Below, in pieces: positions 10,628-56,275 of a stretch of DNA of 64,000 nucleotides. Source of the DNA: Blastocatellia bacterium. Its GTDB lineage: Bacteria; Acidobacteriota; Blastocatellia; Pyrinomonadales; Pyrinomonadaceae. How positions within the stretch are numbered: position 1 is the first letter of the stretch; each line of letters opens with the position of its first letter. The notes below the pieces were generated by a model. The model was not told where the DNA came from. It saw only the letters and a list, made by a program, of their open reading frames with translations, and searched no databases. Location: positions 210,001 through 274,000 of the forward strand of contig PMSM01000010.1 of assembly GCA_003168335.1 (NCBI GenBank), read 5' to 3'. A program made the position numbers and the translations under genes.

Positions 10628-10633
10628 AAGTGA

Positions 10634-10668
10634 TTTCGGATTGCGGATTTCGAATTGCGAATTAGTAG
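10634..10668. repeat. Heptamer array, TTTCGGA type, single-sided
   Basis: Five consecutive 7-nt units are TTTCGGA, TTGCGGA, TTTCGAA, TTGCGAA and TTAGTAG. The first begins six bases from the PfkB start codon. The same unit family flanks the S23-type gene at 54374 and the gene-less element at 50432. Confidence 0.85.
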
Positions 10669-22793: not shown

Positions 22794-22885
22794 TTCGGAT
22801 TTCAAAGTCTACATGGTAACGAGCAGATGCGCGATCTCGCACCGCCCCTGGACGATTGCCGGCAACCGCGTAGCAGGTGATCCAC

Positions 22886-23053
22886 TTTCCATTTTTCATT
22901 TTTCATTCGGCATTTGCGGTTTCTTGTTCGGGTCCGTTCGTGTGATTTCGTGGATCGCTCTTCATCCCTCAGCTAAGCAAGCGATCCACCAGGTCACACG
23001 AAACAACGCGAAGCATCAATGAAATATGACAAATGGAAAATGGAAAATGATTC
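22886..23053. mobile_element. Gene-less heptamer element, TTTCCAT type
   Basis: The left array has units TTTCCAT, TTTTCAT, TTTTCAT, TCGGCAT and TTGCGGT (22886-22920). The right array is inverted: ATGAAAT, ATGACAA, ATGGAAA, ATGGAAA and ATGATTC (23019-23053). Each is five 7-nt units. Between them is a palindrome of the TTCGTGTGATTTCGTGGATC family (22935-23004) instead of a gene. It occupies the 345-nt divergent gap between the NHL gene and hflX, which shows no other feature. Confidence 0.75.
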
Positions 23054-37020: not shown

Positions 37021-38484
37021 ATGTTTTCTCCGTCGCGCTCGCGCCAATCAACCCTTTGGGCCCTGACTCTTCTTTTCGTCGCATTGTGCTTCCAGCTCGC
37101 GCCGGCACAGACCGAAGATCCAACCGACGGCGAAACCGACCCGGTAAAGCTATTTGAGCGCGGCCAAAACGCTCATGCTAAGGGAGACCTCCCGCGCGCG
37201 CTCGCCCTTTATGAAGGCGCGCTCAAACTGCGGCCCGAGTTTCCCGAAGCCGAATATCAACGCGGCGTCGCCCTCGTGGCCCTCGATCGATCACCCGAAG
37301 CTGAGAAGGCCTTCGCTCGCGCCATTGATCTAAAAAAGAATTGGGTTCTTCCAATCAGCGCGCTGGGCAATGTACTCGTCCGTTCTGCGCGAGACAAAGA
37401 CGCCGAACCTCTTCTTCGGCGCGCAATGCAACTGGGTGCAAAGGATTCTGTCACGCTGGATTCACTCTCGACGGTGCGCGCTCGCGCTGGTGACAAAGAC
37501 GAAGCACTGGCGCTGGCCCGGACTGCGACTGACGACGACAATGCCTCGGCTTCGGCCTGGGCCTGGCGAGGAGCAATGGAGAGAGCTACCGGAAATAAGG
37601 AAGCTGCTCTGACCAGCCTCAATCGCGCTCTGCAAATTCAGCCGAATTATGTCGTGGCCGTGAAAGAGCGTGCTGAGTTGCGCCTGGACGCCGCCGACTA
37701 CGCACCGGCAATCGAAGATCTTAAGTCGGCTCTGTCAGTCAAACCTGGCGACAAAGAGATCTCGCTCCGACTCGCCCATGCTTATGAACTGGCGAACAAG
37801 CCGGATGAAGCCCGACGTATCTATGAAAGTATCGGCTATGAAGGCGACGGCCAGGATAAATCACAAAATGGCGGCGCCATCAACGTAGCCGGCACGGCGG
37901 AGGACATCGCCGCTGCCAACAACGACGATCCTAAAGTCGCGCAGCCGGCGCTCGAAAGACTGCTCGTCGCCAATCCGAAGAACGCGAAACTCTTTGCGCG
38001 CCTCGGCGAGGTCACGCGCCGCAGCGACCCTCAAAAAAGCGGCGAGTCGTACGGGCGAGCCAATCAGATCGATCCGGCCAATCCGACATACGCCATCGGG
38101 TATGCCGCGGCGCTGGTCCAGTTGCGGCGCTTTGCCGTCGCCGAGACCATCCTGCGTCGCGTGATTGCCACGGCCCCAAATGAATACACCGCGCATGCAA
38201 ATCTTGCGCTGGCACTCTTCGAGTTGAAGCGTTACTCCGAAGCGCTGCCGGAATACGAGTGGGCGGCGGCGACAAAACCTGAAATCGCGGCGACATACTT
38301 CTTCATCGCCGCGGCGCATGATAATCTCGGTGAGTACCAGCAAGCTCTGGACGCTTATGAAAAGTTTTTGTCGCGAGCCGATCCTACAAACAACAAGCTC
38401 GACATTGAGAAAGTTAACCTGCGCCTCCCCAGGCTTCGAGATCAAATCAGCCGCGGACAGGGCACGAAGCGAAAGAAGCCCTGA
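37021..38484 (+). CDS. Exported TPR-repeat protein
   Basis: The 487-residue protein has a signal peptide (about residues 1-36). Most of the rest is tetratricopeptide helices, with repeats such as LFERGQNAHAKGDLPRALALYEGAL, AEYQRGVALVALDRSPEAEKAFARAI, ASAWAWRGAMERATGNKEAALTSLNRAL and AHDNLGEYQQALDAYEKFLSRADP. A break around residues 290-310 suggests two TPR blocks. It is a periplasmic scaffold by inference. It heads a run of five plus-strand genes of envelope type. Confidence 0.85.
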   Translation: MFSPSRSRQSTLWALTLLFVALCFQLAPAQTEDPTDGETDPVKLFERGQNAHAKGDLPRALALYEGALKLRPEFPEAEYQRGVALVALDRSPEAEKAFARAIDLKKNWVLPISALGNVLVRSARDKDAEPLLRRAMQLGAKDSVTLDSLSTVRARAGDKDEALALARTATDDDNASASAWAWRGAMERATGNKEAALTSLNRALQIQPNYVVAVKERAELRLDAADYAPAIEDLKSALSVKPGDKEISLRLAHAYELANKPDEARRIYESIGYEGDGQDKSQNGGAINVAGTAEDIAAANNDDPKVAQPALERLLVANPKNAKLFARLGEVTRRSDPQKSGESYGRANQIDPANPTYAIGYAAALVQLRRFAVAETILRRVIATAPNEYTAHANLALALFELKRYSEALPEYEWAAATKPEIAATYFFIAAAHDNLGEYQQALDAYEKFLSRADPTNNKLDIEKVNLRLPRLRDQISRGQGTKRKKP

Positions 38485-50418: not shown

Positions 50419-50431
50419 GGCGTTACCTCAA

Positions 50432-50562
50432 TTTCGAATTTCGAAGTTCGAATTGCGAATTTCGATCAGGATTCGTCAATGTCAACAGAGGCGGGGATTC
50501 AGCCACTAATTCACAGCAGTCCTGGAATCCGCAATTCGAAATTCGCAATCCGAAATTCATAC
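50432..50562. mobile_element. Gene-less heptamer element, TTTCGAA type
   Basis: Left array: TTTCGAA, TTTCGAA, GTTCGAA, TTGCGAA, TTTCGAT (50432-50466). Right array, inverted: TCCGCAA, TTCGAAA, TTCGCAA, TCCGAAA, TTCATAC (50528-50562). Both are five 7-nt units. The 61-nt centre has no ORF. The right array supplies the TGA stop of the ABC ATPase gene, and the left starts 13 nt from the cNMP-DUF1003 start codon. Confidence 0.85.
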
Positions 50563-51475: not shown

Positions 51476-53341
51476 TTAACTTGACCGGTTCTGCACTCGC
51501 CAAAGCTCAAATTGTTCCCGGTCAAATCCCTTCAGAGGCATTTCGAACCGCGTGGCCGAAAGGCCTTTCTCAGGATCGCTCAAGAGCTCGCGCACCTCCG
51601 GATCGGAATAAACTGCAGTTGAGATAACCACGTCGTCTCCGGTCGATTGTGCTTCTAAACGCGCCGCCAGATTGACCGTCGATCCAAAATAATCCAAACG
51701 GTCGTTCAGCGTCACGGCAATACAGGGACCTGTGTGCACGCCGGCCTTAAGAGTGAGCGGCGACATTCCTTCCGGCGGAGAGCCGAGCCGCTGTTGCGCG
51801 TGGAGCATGGCCCGCACCGCGCCCGCAGGAGAACGGAAGACCGCCATCACCGCGTCGCCGATCGTCTTCACCAAAGCGCCATCTTCGTCGGCGATTACCT
51901 GTTTCAAAACATCAAAGTGGTTCATCACCCGTCCGAACGCCGTCGCGTCCCCAATCTCACGGTACATGCGGGTCGAGTTTCTCAAATCTGTAAACAACAC
52001 CGTCAGCGTACCGACGGAAATCTGTTCGCCGGGTCGCAGTGCTTCACTCGCAAACAGATCGCGGAAGACCTGCAGGGCCGTGACCTCGGCGGCGGTAGCC
52101 GCGTCATCGCTCCAGGCGGTGCGTTCGAGAATGAATAGCTGCTCGTCATCGGTCGCGTTCTCAAAATTGATGTGACCTGTCGTATCGATCGCTATCTCTT
52201 CATTAGCCCAGCCACTGTTCGTGGCGCGCAACGTCACGACGCCCGGGCCGTTTTCCGCAGCGCGCAGGTGTTGCCAGCCGGCGAGACTCATCGTGCGTAG
52301 CCGGTATCGCCCGGCCGGAAGAGCCAAATCGATCGCGCGAGTCGTATGCGGCGCGACCAGTTGTTGGGCCGCGACATGCGGCTGCACCTGCGGCCCACCA
52401 ATGCAAAAGGTTTCGGCGTCGGTTTCGCGAATCGACGGGTTCGGTCGAAAAGTAAGCTCGACTGATTGTTCAAAGTTCACGGCGAAATCGATGTTGCAGC
52501 CAGGACAATGAACGTTTGACGCGATGTCTTTTAGCGAACCGCTAGGGCCGCCGCCCCGGCACATCGGGCAGATCAAGTTCCACTGCAAATCGAGCATCCC
52601 GGTCCGCGTCGCGCACAGGCACGTTTCGAGCATCGCGCGCTGAGGTTGCTTCCATTGTCTTGCCAATTCGTATGGCCGAATTCGCGCGAGCGCAAAATCA
52701 TCGGCGTTCTCAATATGATCCACCAACAGCGCGACCAGCTCACCGTCGCTTCCTTCGGCGGCCAGTCTTTCGCTCAGCGCCAGCAAACGGGCCCGGCCGC
52801 CGGGAACGAATTCAACCGTCGTTGAAAGGTTCGCGGCAGAGCGTCCATGCTTAGCCAGTTCGTCGTAGTCACGAAGGGTCCGAGCAAAGTTCCGCGCGCT
52901 CAAGATGCCAATTTGAATTGGAATAGCAATCAATCCAACAATATTCTTTGGCGTTGCCCAGACTTCATAAACCAGCTTTGAGCCCAATGGCTGATGCGCC
53001 CGAATCGGCGACTCGCCTGGCGGTTTCTCCCGGGGCGTTAGTTCCACCAGGACGCGCAACTCGCTAATTGGTCCGCTAGTGTAGCGACGCACAACGCCGA
53101 ACCGACTTGGCCGTATCCACTCGAATGGCTGCTCTTCCCACTCGACCGGAATGCCGAAGGCCGAAAGCCGCAGACGCCGGCGCGCATTTTTTAAGTTACG
53201 GGTTTCGCTCTTTAAGACCTCAACCGCCGGCACTCCCGTGTCACGATTGAAACGATTGGTATCGGCTACCAGCGGCCACAGTTGTTCAGGCGACGATTCG
53301 AGATCGAATTCCCAGCGATAATGGAATTCACGGTAGGGCAT
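51476..53341 (-). CDS. Adenylate/guanylate cyclase with N-terminal SRPBCC-like domain
   Basis: The 621-residue protein starts with a START/SRPBCC-like ligand domain (about residues 1-165: FHYRWEFDLESSPEQLWPLVADT). A middle domain of DUF5939 type follows, with CPMCRGGG ... VHCPGCNIDF (two CxxC pairs, a possible zinc site) near residues 258-282. The C-terminal class III cyclase domain (about 440-610) shows LFTDLRNST and GDAVMAVF with both metal-binding Asp residues, and FGSTVNLAARLE with the catalytic Asn and Arg. It is a ligand- or metal-controlled cNMP producer by inference. The cNMP-binding protein at 49519 could respond to it. The start codon touches a heptamer array. Confidence 0.88.
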   Translation of the reverse strand: MPYREFHYRWEFDLESSPEQLWPLVADTNRFNRDTGVPAVEVLKSETRNLKNARRRLRLSAFGIPVEWEEQPFEWIRPSRFGVVRRYTSGPISELRVLVELTPREKPPGESPIRAHQPLGSKLVYEVWATPKNIVGLIAIPIQIGILSARNFARTLRDYDELAKHGRSAANLSTTVEFVPGGRARLLALSERLAAEGSDGELVALLVDHIENADDFALARIRPYELARQWKQPQRAMLETCLCATRTGMLDLQWNLICPMCRGGGPSGSLKDIASNVHCPGCNIDFAVNFEQSVELTFRPNPSIRETDAETFCIGGPQVQPHVAAQQLVAPHTTRAIDLALPAGRYRLRTMSLAGWQHLRAAENGPGVVTLRATNSGWANEEIAIDTTGHINFENATDDEQLFILERTAWSDDAATAAEVTALQVFRDLFASEALRPGEQISVGTLTVLFTDLRNSTRMYREIGDATAFGRVMNHFDVLKQVIADEDGALVKTIGDAVMAVFRSPAGAVRAMLHAQQRLGSPPEGMSPLTLKAGVHTGPCIAVTLNDRLDYFGSTVNLAARLEAQSTGDDVVISTAVYSDPEVRELLSDPEKGLSATRFEMPLKGFDREQFELWRVQNRSS

Positions 53342-53819
53342 CAGAAGTCGGAGGTCAGAAGTCAGAAGTCAGTGGCTCAGGAAACTGCCAGGATTCTTGA
53401 TCATACTCCCGAGCATTCTGCCAATTTCCTCGCACAGAGCAGCAAGTTTCGCATGCTGATCGGCCGCGATATACTTACAATCTTTGGCAAAATCGAGTGA
53501 GGAGTCGGTTTCGCTGTTCTCGCCATCACAATCCGTCAGCTTGTTAACAAAATGGGCTTCACACCTTCGCTTTGCCCAAGCTTCACGCAAATTCAGACAT
53601 ACTGAACGCGACGATCTGCGGATTTGATTAGTTAATGCAAATCTCTCCTCTAATGGAAGAGTTTTGCTTAGCTCAAACACTCTCATCGCAAGTTCATACG
53701 CGGCTTTGTACACTTTCAAATCCTTTGCAGAATTAATTTGCATTCTGAGCTCCACCCGCCACGCTGACCTCTGACTTCCGATCTCTGACCTCTGACCCCC
53801 GACCTCTGGTCTCTAGACT
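53341..53819. mobile_element. S23-family gene inside inverted TCAGAAG heptamer arrays
   Basis: The left array is TCAGAAG, TCGGAGG, TCAGAAG, TCAGAAG, TCAGTGG (53341-53375). The right array, inverted, is CTGACCT, CTGACTT, CCGATCT, CTGACCT, CTGACCC, CCGACCT, CTGGTCT, CTAGACT (53764-53819). The only gene inside is the four-helix-bundle gene at 53369. The left array carries the stop codon of that gene and touches the cyclase start. The right array carries the TAG stop of nuoI in its last unit. Confidence 0.8.
53369..53743 (-). CDS. Four-helix-bundle protein, 23S rRNA-intervening-sequence (S23/Avd) family
   Basis: The 124-residue protein is all-helical and shows the family pattern: AKDLKVYKAAYELAMRVFELSKTLPLEERFALTNQIRRSSRSVCLNLREAWAKR (read in parts), followed by a helix with FVNKLTDCDGENSETDSSLDFA and a final helix around LAALCEEIGRMLGSMIK. 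Members of this family form pentameric barrels and include the IVPs encoded in 23S rRNA intervening sequences and the Avd accessory protein of diversity-generating retroelements. Start: ATG 53743, with GGTGGAG upstream; the frame also allows GTG 53755. The stop is in the first-side heptamer array. Confidence 0.9.
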   Translation of the reverse strand: MQINSAKDLKVYKAAYELAMRVFELSKTLPLEERFALTNQIRRSSRSVCLNLREAWAKRRCEAHFVNKLTDCDGENSETDSSLDFAKDCKYIAADQHAKLAALCEEIGRMLGSMIKNPGSFLSH

Positions 53820-54334
53820 TCTTTCCATTCCGAATCCACGTCCTCGTCCGAAAACGCCACGCGATAATTCTTCGACTGTACTTGCTTGGTGATCAGCAGG
53901 TCGTCTTTCCTTTTCAGCAGATCCGCACGGTTATAGACCGACAGCTCAAAGTTGTAGCCATGGGTGATCGCGTCTTTCGGACAGGCTTCAACACAGTAAC
54001 CGCAAAAAATGCAGCGCCCATAGTCGATGTTGTAGATCTTCGCATAGCGCTCATCAACACCCGTGCGTTCCTCGGGCGCGCGCGGATCGTCGGCCGCCTC
54101 GATATAGATGCACTCCGACGGGCAGGCCGCCGCACACAGAAAACACGCAACGCACTTCTCGCGGCCCAGTTCGTCGACGTGCAGCAAGTGCTGGCCGCGA
54201 TAACGCGGCTGCACCGTGACGGGCTCTTCGGGATACTGAACGGTCTGCTTACGCTTCGGAATGTAAGACAGAGTGACGCTCATCCCCTGGATGATTGCCC
54301 TCGTTGATTCGATGACTTCAGTAATGATGGACAT
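53813..54334 (-). CDS. nuoI: NADH-quinone oxidoreductase subunit I
   Basis: The 173-residue iron-sulphur subunit of complex I carries two [4Fe-4S] ferredoxin motifs: CVACFLCAAACPSECIYIE and CIFCGYCVEACPKDAI. NuoI conducts electrons towards the quinone site at the membrane side. The C-terminal 35 residues are polar. No other nuo gene is nearby: the flanks are two S23-type elements, a cyclase and zinc-ribbon genes. It is therefore an isolated copy, or the operon has been split. Its promoter would have to lie in or beyond the heptamer array adjoining the ATG. Confidence 0.93.
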   Translation of the reverse strand: MSIITEVIESTRAIIQGMSVTLSYIPKRKQTVQYPEEPVTVQPRYRGQHLLHVDELGREKCVACFLCAAACPSECIYIEAADDPRAPEERTGVDERYAKIYNIDYGRCIFCGYCVEACPKDAITHGYNFELSVYNRADLLKRKDDLLITKQVQSKNYRVAFSDEDVDSEWKEV

Positions 54335-54342
54335 GTTCTTAA

Positions 54343-54771
54343 TTTCGGATTTCGGATTGCGAATTGCGAATTTTCAGGCCCTCGCTGCTTTCGCCGTTCT
54401 CCCGGCGCTGGTGAAGATCGCTAAGAGCTCGCCAGATTCCTGCAGTAACCAGTCGCGCTGTTTAGCGTCACCAAGTTCCGCCTCGTCGCAGATCTCCAAC
54501 CAGTACTGACTCTCTGAAGCTTCCTTTTCGACGATGGCAATCTTATGAATGAAGTCATTGCGCGATTCGGCCCGGTTTGCCTCACGATAGTTTGCTCCAA
54601 CCGAGGTTCCAGCCTTAACCAATTGATATCTGATCACATCCCCAGTTCTTCCATTCGGCAACGTCGCAGCAAACGCAATAATTTTCAGCGCAAACTGCTT
54701 CGTTCTTTTTTCTAATTCAAGCTTGTCCATTGCCAATTCGCAATTCGAAATTCGAATTTCGCAATTCCAAG
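54343..54771. mobile_element. S23-family gene inside inverted TTTCGAA heptamer arrays
   Basis: Left array: TTTCGGA, TTTCGGA, TTGCGAA, TTGCGAA, TTTTCAG (54343-54377). Right array, inverted: TTGCCAA, TTCGCAA, TTCGAAA, TTCGAAT, TTCGCAA, TTCCAAG (54730-54771). The S23-type gene at 54374 lies between them, its stop inside the left array and its start touching the right array. The whole element fills the gap between nuoI and the next gene exactly: two bases remain on the right. Confidence 0.85.
54374..54730 (-). CDS. Four-helix-bundle protein, 23S rRNA-intervening-sequence (S23/Avd) family
   Basis: The 118-residue all-helical protein shows the family core KIIAFAATLPNGRTGDVIRYQLVKAGTSVGANYREANRAESRNDFIHKIAIVEKEASESQYWLEI (read in parts) and an Ala/Arg/Lys-rich tail. 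The GTSVGANYREA motif marks the commoner subfamily, different from the SSRSVCLNLREA type at 53369. Function is unknown for stand-alone members; relatives are pentameric. ATG 54730 follows the right heptamer array directly, without a clear ribosome site; a TTG at 54736 is also in frame. Confidence 0.9.
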   Translation of the reverse strand: MDKLELEKRTKQFALKIIAFAATLPNGRTGDVIRYQLVKAGTSVGANYREANRAESRNDFIHKIAIVEKEASESQYWLEICDEAELGDAKQRDWLLQESGELLAIFTSAGRTAKAARA

Positions 54772-56240: not shown

Positions 56241-56275
56241 CCACTGACAACTGACGACTGACCATTGGCAGTTTC
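56241..56275. repeat. Heptamer array, CCACTGA type, next to ndk stop
   Basis: Units CCACTGA, CAACTGA, CGACTGA, CCATTGG, CAGTTTC (56241-56275), five in register, run up to the ndk stop codon. No mirrored partner array was recognised on the other side, so it is a solitary end or a degraded element. Confidence 0.6.

Follow-up and report, generated by a model that had tools for sequence, protein, structure and literature searches.

REPIN/RAYT systems (RAYT, REP-associated tyrosine transposase) and pairs formed by transposons and miniature inverted-repeat transposable elements (MITEs) comprise a gene-bearing form and many gene-less forms with common inverted ends. In the 23S rRNA intervening sequence (IVS) of Coxiella, GACAGAT heptamers precede the S23 open reading frame (ORF) in variable number; the accessible text of the study concerned (PMC4990558) treats this one IVS, holds no general array rule and cites an older idea that IVSs were once mobile, with the ORF as their mobility part. 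Here we describe a 64,000-nt stretch of a Blastocatellia bacterium genome (contig PMSM01000010.1, forward-strand positions 210,001 to 274,000; the whole stretch is hereafter the window), in which two S23-family genes lie on either side of nuoI, each between inverted arrays of 7-nt units. We think it likely that each is a minimal mobile element, the S23 element, with arrays that are recognised by its S23 protein. What is observed is the architecture and how general it is, the correlation between unit and protein, the polarity of the units, the discrete insertions and the S23-less copies with the same ends. The likeness to IVSs lies in the protein family and in an insert of 428 nt with terminal inverted repeats, but the window elements sit between protein genes (nuoI and others). 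As in REPIN/RAYT and MITE/transposon pairs, S23-bearing and many S23-less forms have common inverted ends; unlike in those systems, no transposase match lies inside the S23 element and the ends are tandem arrays of short, clade-linked units. The locus is organised as follows.

53341..53372, minus strand: array of element 1, downstream of the S23 gene, of the TCAGAAG type as read on the plus strand; holds the stop codon of the gene
53369..53755, minus strand: S23/IVP four-helix-bundle gene of element 1; likely ATG at 53743; PF05635, 103.7 bits
53764..53819, minus strand: array of element 1 on the upstream side of the S23 gene, inverse-complementary to 53341-53372 and overlapping the stop of nuoI
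53813..54334, minus strand: nuoI, the host gene between elements 1 and 2; TIGR01971, 141.4 bits (cut-off 113.05)
54342..54372, minus strand: array of element 2, downstream of the S23 gene, of the ATTTCGG/ATTGCGA type
54374..54736, minus strand: S23/IVP gene of element 2, from a second subfamily; likely ATG at 54730; PF05635, 61.5 bits
54723..54767, minus strand: array of element 2, upstream of the S23 gene and overlapping its start; inverse complement of 54342-54372

A first reading of the window, made from the sequence only, had described two S23-family genes between inverted heptamer arrays that touch or contain the ORF ends and fill both flanks of nuoI, and this description holds. The inverted arms measure 41 nt with 80% complementarity in element 1, whose upstream array has eight units, and 32 nt with 84% in element 2. 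The stop of gene 1 lies inside its downstream array and the start of gene 2 inside its upstream array. At its outer edges, element 1 reaches into the stop of nuoI (53813-53815) on one side and covers the first base of the start codon of a cyclase-like gene (53341) on the other; element 2 comes within 5-7 nt of the nuoI start (54334) and of the stop of the next gene (54773). Both intergenic spaces of nuoI are thus filled by elements. At a score of at least 9.5, the window holds 11 period-7 arrays, one of them (53149-53170) inside a coding frame, against 0 or 1 in each of five block shuffles; the same scan returned 3, 0 and 3 arrays at periods 6, 8 and 9. The period-7 arrays of the window are not due to chance.

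Both proteins are above the family cut-offs (103.7 and 61.5 bits against 33.8 for PF05635; 97.5 and 80 bits against 24 for TIGR02436). When the frames of at least 60 aa reaching between the window arrays were searched against Pfam, the S23 ORFs alone had a match, and no transposase was found. Protein 1, modelled as a monomer, is a four-helix bundle (predicted local distance difference test score, pLDDT, 96.1) that matches 2gsc (XCC0516; TMt 0.91), a pentamer according to the title of the cited report, as well as 2rld (BT_0352). A weaker match (Foldseek E 5.3e-3, TMt 0.87) links it to Avd (4dwl), a protein of diversity-generating retroelements (DGRs) with the same fold; however, protein 1 reaches 40.3 of the 80 bits of the Avd equivalog cut-off, protein 2 has no match to it, and, unlike a DGR, the source genome lacks a reverse transcriptase (RVT_1) match over the cut-off. 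Among 14 Mesorhizobium orthologues, the ratio of non-synonymous to synonymous substitution rates (dN/dS) has a median of 0.083 (85 pairs), and the S23 protein is therefore under selection.

The arrangement is not peculiar to the window. In the source genome, each of the four S23 genes over the cut-off stands, by eye, between inverted heptamer arrays with a unit of their own; a fifth match, below the cut-off (26.4 bits), does not. Across the seven genomes of the genus (all 68 S23 matches), period 7 scores best among tandem periods of 4 to 12 in 55 of 70 upstream flanks and in 59 of 70 downstream flanks. In the best 80 of 586 contigs from many phyla, a set that leans to one protein clade, the upstream period is 7 in 61, 8 in 12 and 9 in 2, and the downstream period 7 in 64, 8 in 10 and 9 in 2. 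On cyanobacterial and Azospirillum plasmids (29 records with S23, 11 of them examined first and further ones later), the first loci read showed heptamers in 10 of 11 cases and octamers in one. Another 59 S23 matches in 12 genomes, from which 30 loci were taken, added 12 full-length genes. From 182 unique pieces we retained the 151 full-length S23 genes with at least 150 nt on both sides, the other 31 being fragments, low scores or pieces with short flanks. As controls we used 496 stop-to-stop frames of at least 110 residues from the same loci, not all of which are real genes. Arrays of the same period (7, 8 or 9 nt) occupy both flanks of 112 S23 genes and of 22 controls; flank arrays match in inverted orientation for 101 of the S23 genes against 15 of the controls; and at least one flank carries an array in 144 against 125. 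It had been stated beforehand that the link would be coincidental if most S23 genes elsewhere lacked arrays; at 112 of 151 they stand on both sides, and at 144 on at least one. The unit is not always the heptamer proposed at the outset; period 7 as a universal rule was dropped, octamer and nonamer versions having been found. In two Mesorhizobium loci (L152 and L169) with S23 proteins 68% identical, the units are AGTAGGGC octamers and AGTAGGC heptamers, respectively, and the period seems to shift by one base of the unit. Some S23 elements lie inside CRISPR operons of cyanobacterial plasmids (L097, L103 and L107). Two genera, whose units differ, have one between cas6 and cas4; in a third genus the element separates cas10/cmr2 from cmr3 and its arrays consist of octamers.

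That the unit sequence co-varies with the S23 protein was also part of the sequence-only reading, and it does so in the 105 elements with 7-nt arrays on both sides. A Mantel comparison of protein identity with unit similarity gave r 0.308 over all pairs, 0.24 below 60% identity and 0.177 below 45%, and in each identity class 0 of 2000 permutations were as high as observed. Similarity between the upstream unit and the inverse of a downstream unit averages 0.617 within an element and 0.415 across elements; when all downstream arrays are ranked, the element's own comes first in 55 of 105 cases and is in the top five in 94. On the coding strand, upstream units have a core A-G-T-N-N-N-N (A 0.76, G 0.79, T 0.63), and AGT occurs in 54 units against ACT in 5, hence a fixed polarity; the rotation-aligned profile holds 4.13 bits, compared with 2.91 +/- 0.16 (maximum 3.31) in 200 letter shuffles. 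GTSxGANY-type subfamilies, including gene 2 of the window, have ATT-type units instead of the AGT core. Taken together, co-variation, polarity and generality suggest that the S23 protein recognises the array. Arrays have 4 or 5 units in 128 of 210 cases (range 2 to 20), which would be compatible with the suggested pentamer reading five units. In a check of unit order for registered pairing, 53 elements were compared with their permuted medians: the observed value was above in 22, tied in 23 and below in 8, weak support for such pairing.

S23 elements are discrete insertions, present or absent next to stop codons. For a plasmid backbone shared by Nostocales, 10 records cover at least 80% of the query. 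The S23 element is present in three and absent from six that are 97.4-97.8% identical; the tenth, L191, retains one array and part of the S23 gene. Aligned with two empty plasmids, the filled sites L105 and L190, whose arrays differ by two units, are 428 bp and 414 bp longer, respectively; the insertion follows immediately on the upstream gene's stop codon and is flanked by GTAAT. Alleles without S23 also occur beside ribonucleotide reductase, integrase and TraM-like genes, with less clean junctions. At one Mesorhizobium site, the 20 best matches have an S23 match with AGTAGGGC-type octamers (upstream array in 20 of 20, downstream in 17 of 20); among 20 regions hand-chosen from the matches lacking the S23 part, three are empty, with 6-8 nt between the flanks, 15 have short S23-less inserts with inverted arrays of about four other unit types (by eye), and two are cut by contig ends. 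At this intergenic site (L256-L275), the same few bases after the stop codon hold, depending on the species, an S23 element or hairpins of several unit types, which resembles what an insertion hot spot, or exchange of the unit type in place, would give. At nuoI, 30 loci taken from 55 nuoI matches in the family comprise 4 with S23 beside nuoI, 21 with arrays and no S23 match, and 5 with no array within 200 nt at the threshold; in L073 and L078 the beginning of the S23 gene is kept and a deletion follows (by eye). Two genomes of the genus (L068 and L072) have another inverted repeat near nuoI, of the GGAGCGACAT / ATGTCGCTCC type. Flanking repeats are suggestive at three sites (the Trichormus plasmid, ribonucleotide reductase and Mesorhizobium); a copy in an IS4-like sequence (about 75% identity) and two other plasmid sites show no clear duplication, and at one of the latter about 40 bp present in the empty form are moreover missing from the filled one. 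With junction evidence so mixed, we do not claim a target-site duplication.

Copies without S23 that carry the same units are numerous. In the source genome, the element-2 unit pattern has 58 occurrences at 22 places and the reversed pattern none; strict convergent pairs of this type number nine, of which eight are S23-less and only that of the window encloses an S23 match. For the TCAGAAG pattern there are five matches, at four places of which one has S23. S23-less elements with an unrelated core, about 172 nt from array to array, occur on cyanobacterial plasmids, one 30-nt array being identical to that of the S23 element L105 and the other side nearly so. A search with one of them found 114 places in 48 plasmid records, many partial and a few of them S23 elements; 27 of the 48 records cover at least 80% of the query. 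These S23-less relatives are thus, like MITEs, short, non-coding and present in many copies, with ends common with a gene-bearing form. One copy, L199, breaks up a sequence related to genes annotated as IS4 transposases. The small mobile or repeat-linked elements supposed from the window are supported by such copies and by the filled and empty sites. In the plasmid record NZ_CP026682, near 37275-37465, an annotated S23 gene is overlapped by a gene-less element with arrays of the same type; one element may have inserted into the other. The window itself holds further arrays.

50430..50556, no strand: S23-less inverted array pair of the element-2 unit type; arrays 50430-50465 and 50526-50556, 60-nt spacer, hairpin z -3.58
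22881..23049, no strand: S23-less inverted array pair; arrays 22881-22914 and 23019-23049 around an inner inverted repeat
10632..10663, no strand: single array of the element-2 unit type, from the period-7 array scan
56243..56267, no strand: short single array of the ACTGACA type, from the period-7 array scan

The inner repeat enclosed by the 22881-23049 pair is of the TTCGTGTGATTTCGTGGATCGC type and makes a nested hairpin. As in an IVS stem, both window elements have terminal inverted repeats; compared with shuffles, element 1 folds better (z -5.1), as does the 50430 pair, and element 2 does not.

A mechanism may be proposed on this basis. An S23 element would consist of one four-helix-bundle gene between two inverted arrays of 7-9 nt units linked to the protein clade. 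The S23 protein, pentameric in solved relatives, would bind the array, which may be a folded hairpin strand and may offer one unit to each subunit. Binding would allow copying or movement of the element and of its S23-less derivatives, with the S23 protein itself or a host enzyme supplying the chemistry. Insertions would survive mostly in the few bases between operon genes, hence the two elements at nuoI. The 23S rRNA IVSs would likewise be S23 elements, their presence in an rRNA helix being tolerated owing to cleavage of the stem by RNase III. Insertion in 23S rRNA was discarded as the rule: an Rfam scan found no 23S rRNA in any of 20 S23 loci of relatives.

The hairpins could instead be moved by an unrelated enzyme, a RAYT/Y1 transposase or a DGR-like reverse transcriptase, with S23 as cargo or helper; we judge this improbable. 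The resemblance of S23 to Avd, a DGR accessory, speaks for it, and so does the distribution of the enzymes: in 16 S23-bearing genomes, RVT_1 matches occur in 11 (10 over the cut-off) and Y1_Tnp matches in 14, with 14 matches in the source genome. However, the RVT_1 profile has no match in five of these genomes (some of them drafts, and this being one profile), including a 100% complete one with nine S23 matches, and we therefore rejected a reverse transcriptase acting in trans as a general requirement; the only RVT_1 match of the source genome (28.9 bits) is below the cut-off and on another contig. Y1_Tnp has no match in two of the genomes, other transposase families not having been searched. 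Unlike in REPIN/RAYT systems, the Y1 genes examined have no flanking arrays: a period-7 array lies within 330 nt of none of 20 Y1 loci (10 of the 14 in the source genome and five each in two relatives of the genus), on which ground RAYT/Y1 was rejected as the partner.

It is also conceivable, though we hold it unlikely, that S23 is an RNA-binding post-transcriptional regulator, the arrays autoregulatory hairpins and the dispersed S23-less hairpins at gene ends its regulon. Avd, which is related to S23, is reported to work with RNA; the arrays lie in intergenic spaces beside stops and starts; and the hairpins of element 1 (z -5.1) and of the 50430 pair (z -3.6) fold better than their shuffles. 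Such a role does not account for insertions present or absent between close plasmids, for different unit types at one Mesorhizobium site or for a copy that interrupts an IS4-transposase-like sequence, and the folding of element 2 is no better than that of shuffles. Finally, the variable unit number between orthologues (a difference of two between L105 and L190, and variation in Mesorhizobium) is what slippage would produce if the arrays were ordinary simple repeats accumulating beside fast-evolving genes and no element existed. We regard this as very improbable because slippage makes neither mirror-image partners flanking a gene nor a fixed AGT polarity nor clean empty sites.

Several observations weigh against the reading of these loci as mobile S23 elements. 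No transposition was observed and no catalytic motif was identified. As a target duplication, there is a GTAAT(TAA)-like repeat at one clean site and nothing firm at the others. Inheritance looks vertical at orthologous sites of the genus and of Mesorhizobium, which may mean that movement is rare, and the Mantel correlation can come from shared descent alone. Arrays are common, 125 of 496 control ORFs having one on at least one side, and seven of the 151 full-length S23 genes (L034, L120, L150, L160, L168, L178 and L223) have none at the threshold on either side; some of these are near misses or have another periodicity and others may form an array-free group. Element 2 folds no better than shuffles (z -1.26).

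Heptamer repeats have been reported separately elsewhere. Xanthomonas and Nostoc carry GGGAATC / GGGGA(C/T)T repeats (PMC4692102), with 70 and 75 convergent array pairs in two Xanthomonas genomes; in the accessible part of that report, the authors find generally no association of heptamers with mobile elements, and the words S23, four helix and xcc0516 do not occur in the main text. We had predicted that GGGAATC arrays would lead to S23 genes. Four perfect GGGAATC units were found in one of 369 genomes, leading to a genus of eight genomes in the class of Thiohalocapsa (G061), two of which have S23 matches; GGGAATC arrays flank one S23 gene on both sides (L276), another, a truncated match, upstream only (L277), and a third on neither (L278). 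The prediction is thus borne out in part, and the GGGAATC arrays of this genus, unlike the Xanthomonas repeats as described, flank S23 genes. The TAACTGA repeats of Beggiatoaceae (PMC4679880) are also 7-nt tandem repeats adjoining start codons; according to the accessible text they are nearly all direct (169 direct sets and one inverted), whereas S23 arrays are inverted, and neither S23 nor four helix occurs in the main text. In the literature covered, with bioRxiv and most subscription journals outside it, we found no stated link between S23 proteins and heptamer arrays.

More tentatively, and with somewhat less than even confidence, we suggest that S23/IVP proteins are the mobility proteins of pan-bacterial minimal elements: a pentamer with no known nuclease fold would read 7-9-nt units, one per subunit, and drive or license the spread of its own element and of gene-less hairpins, with rRNA IVSs, the Xanthomonas GGGAATC repeats and cyanobacterial heptamer repeats as products. 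The S23 element provides a context and a testable function for a protein family whose structures are solved but which has no known role, and it offers one explanation for heptamer repeats in several phyla. The old question of the role of the IVS ORF becomes a question of binding and mobility. If it is true that S23 itself moves the elements, it would be a transposition protein of a novel kind, one of which, to our knowledge, there is no example.

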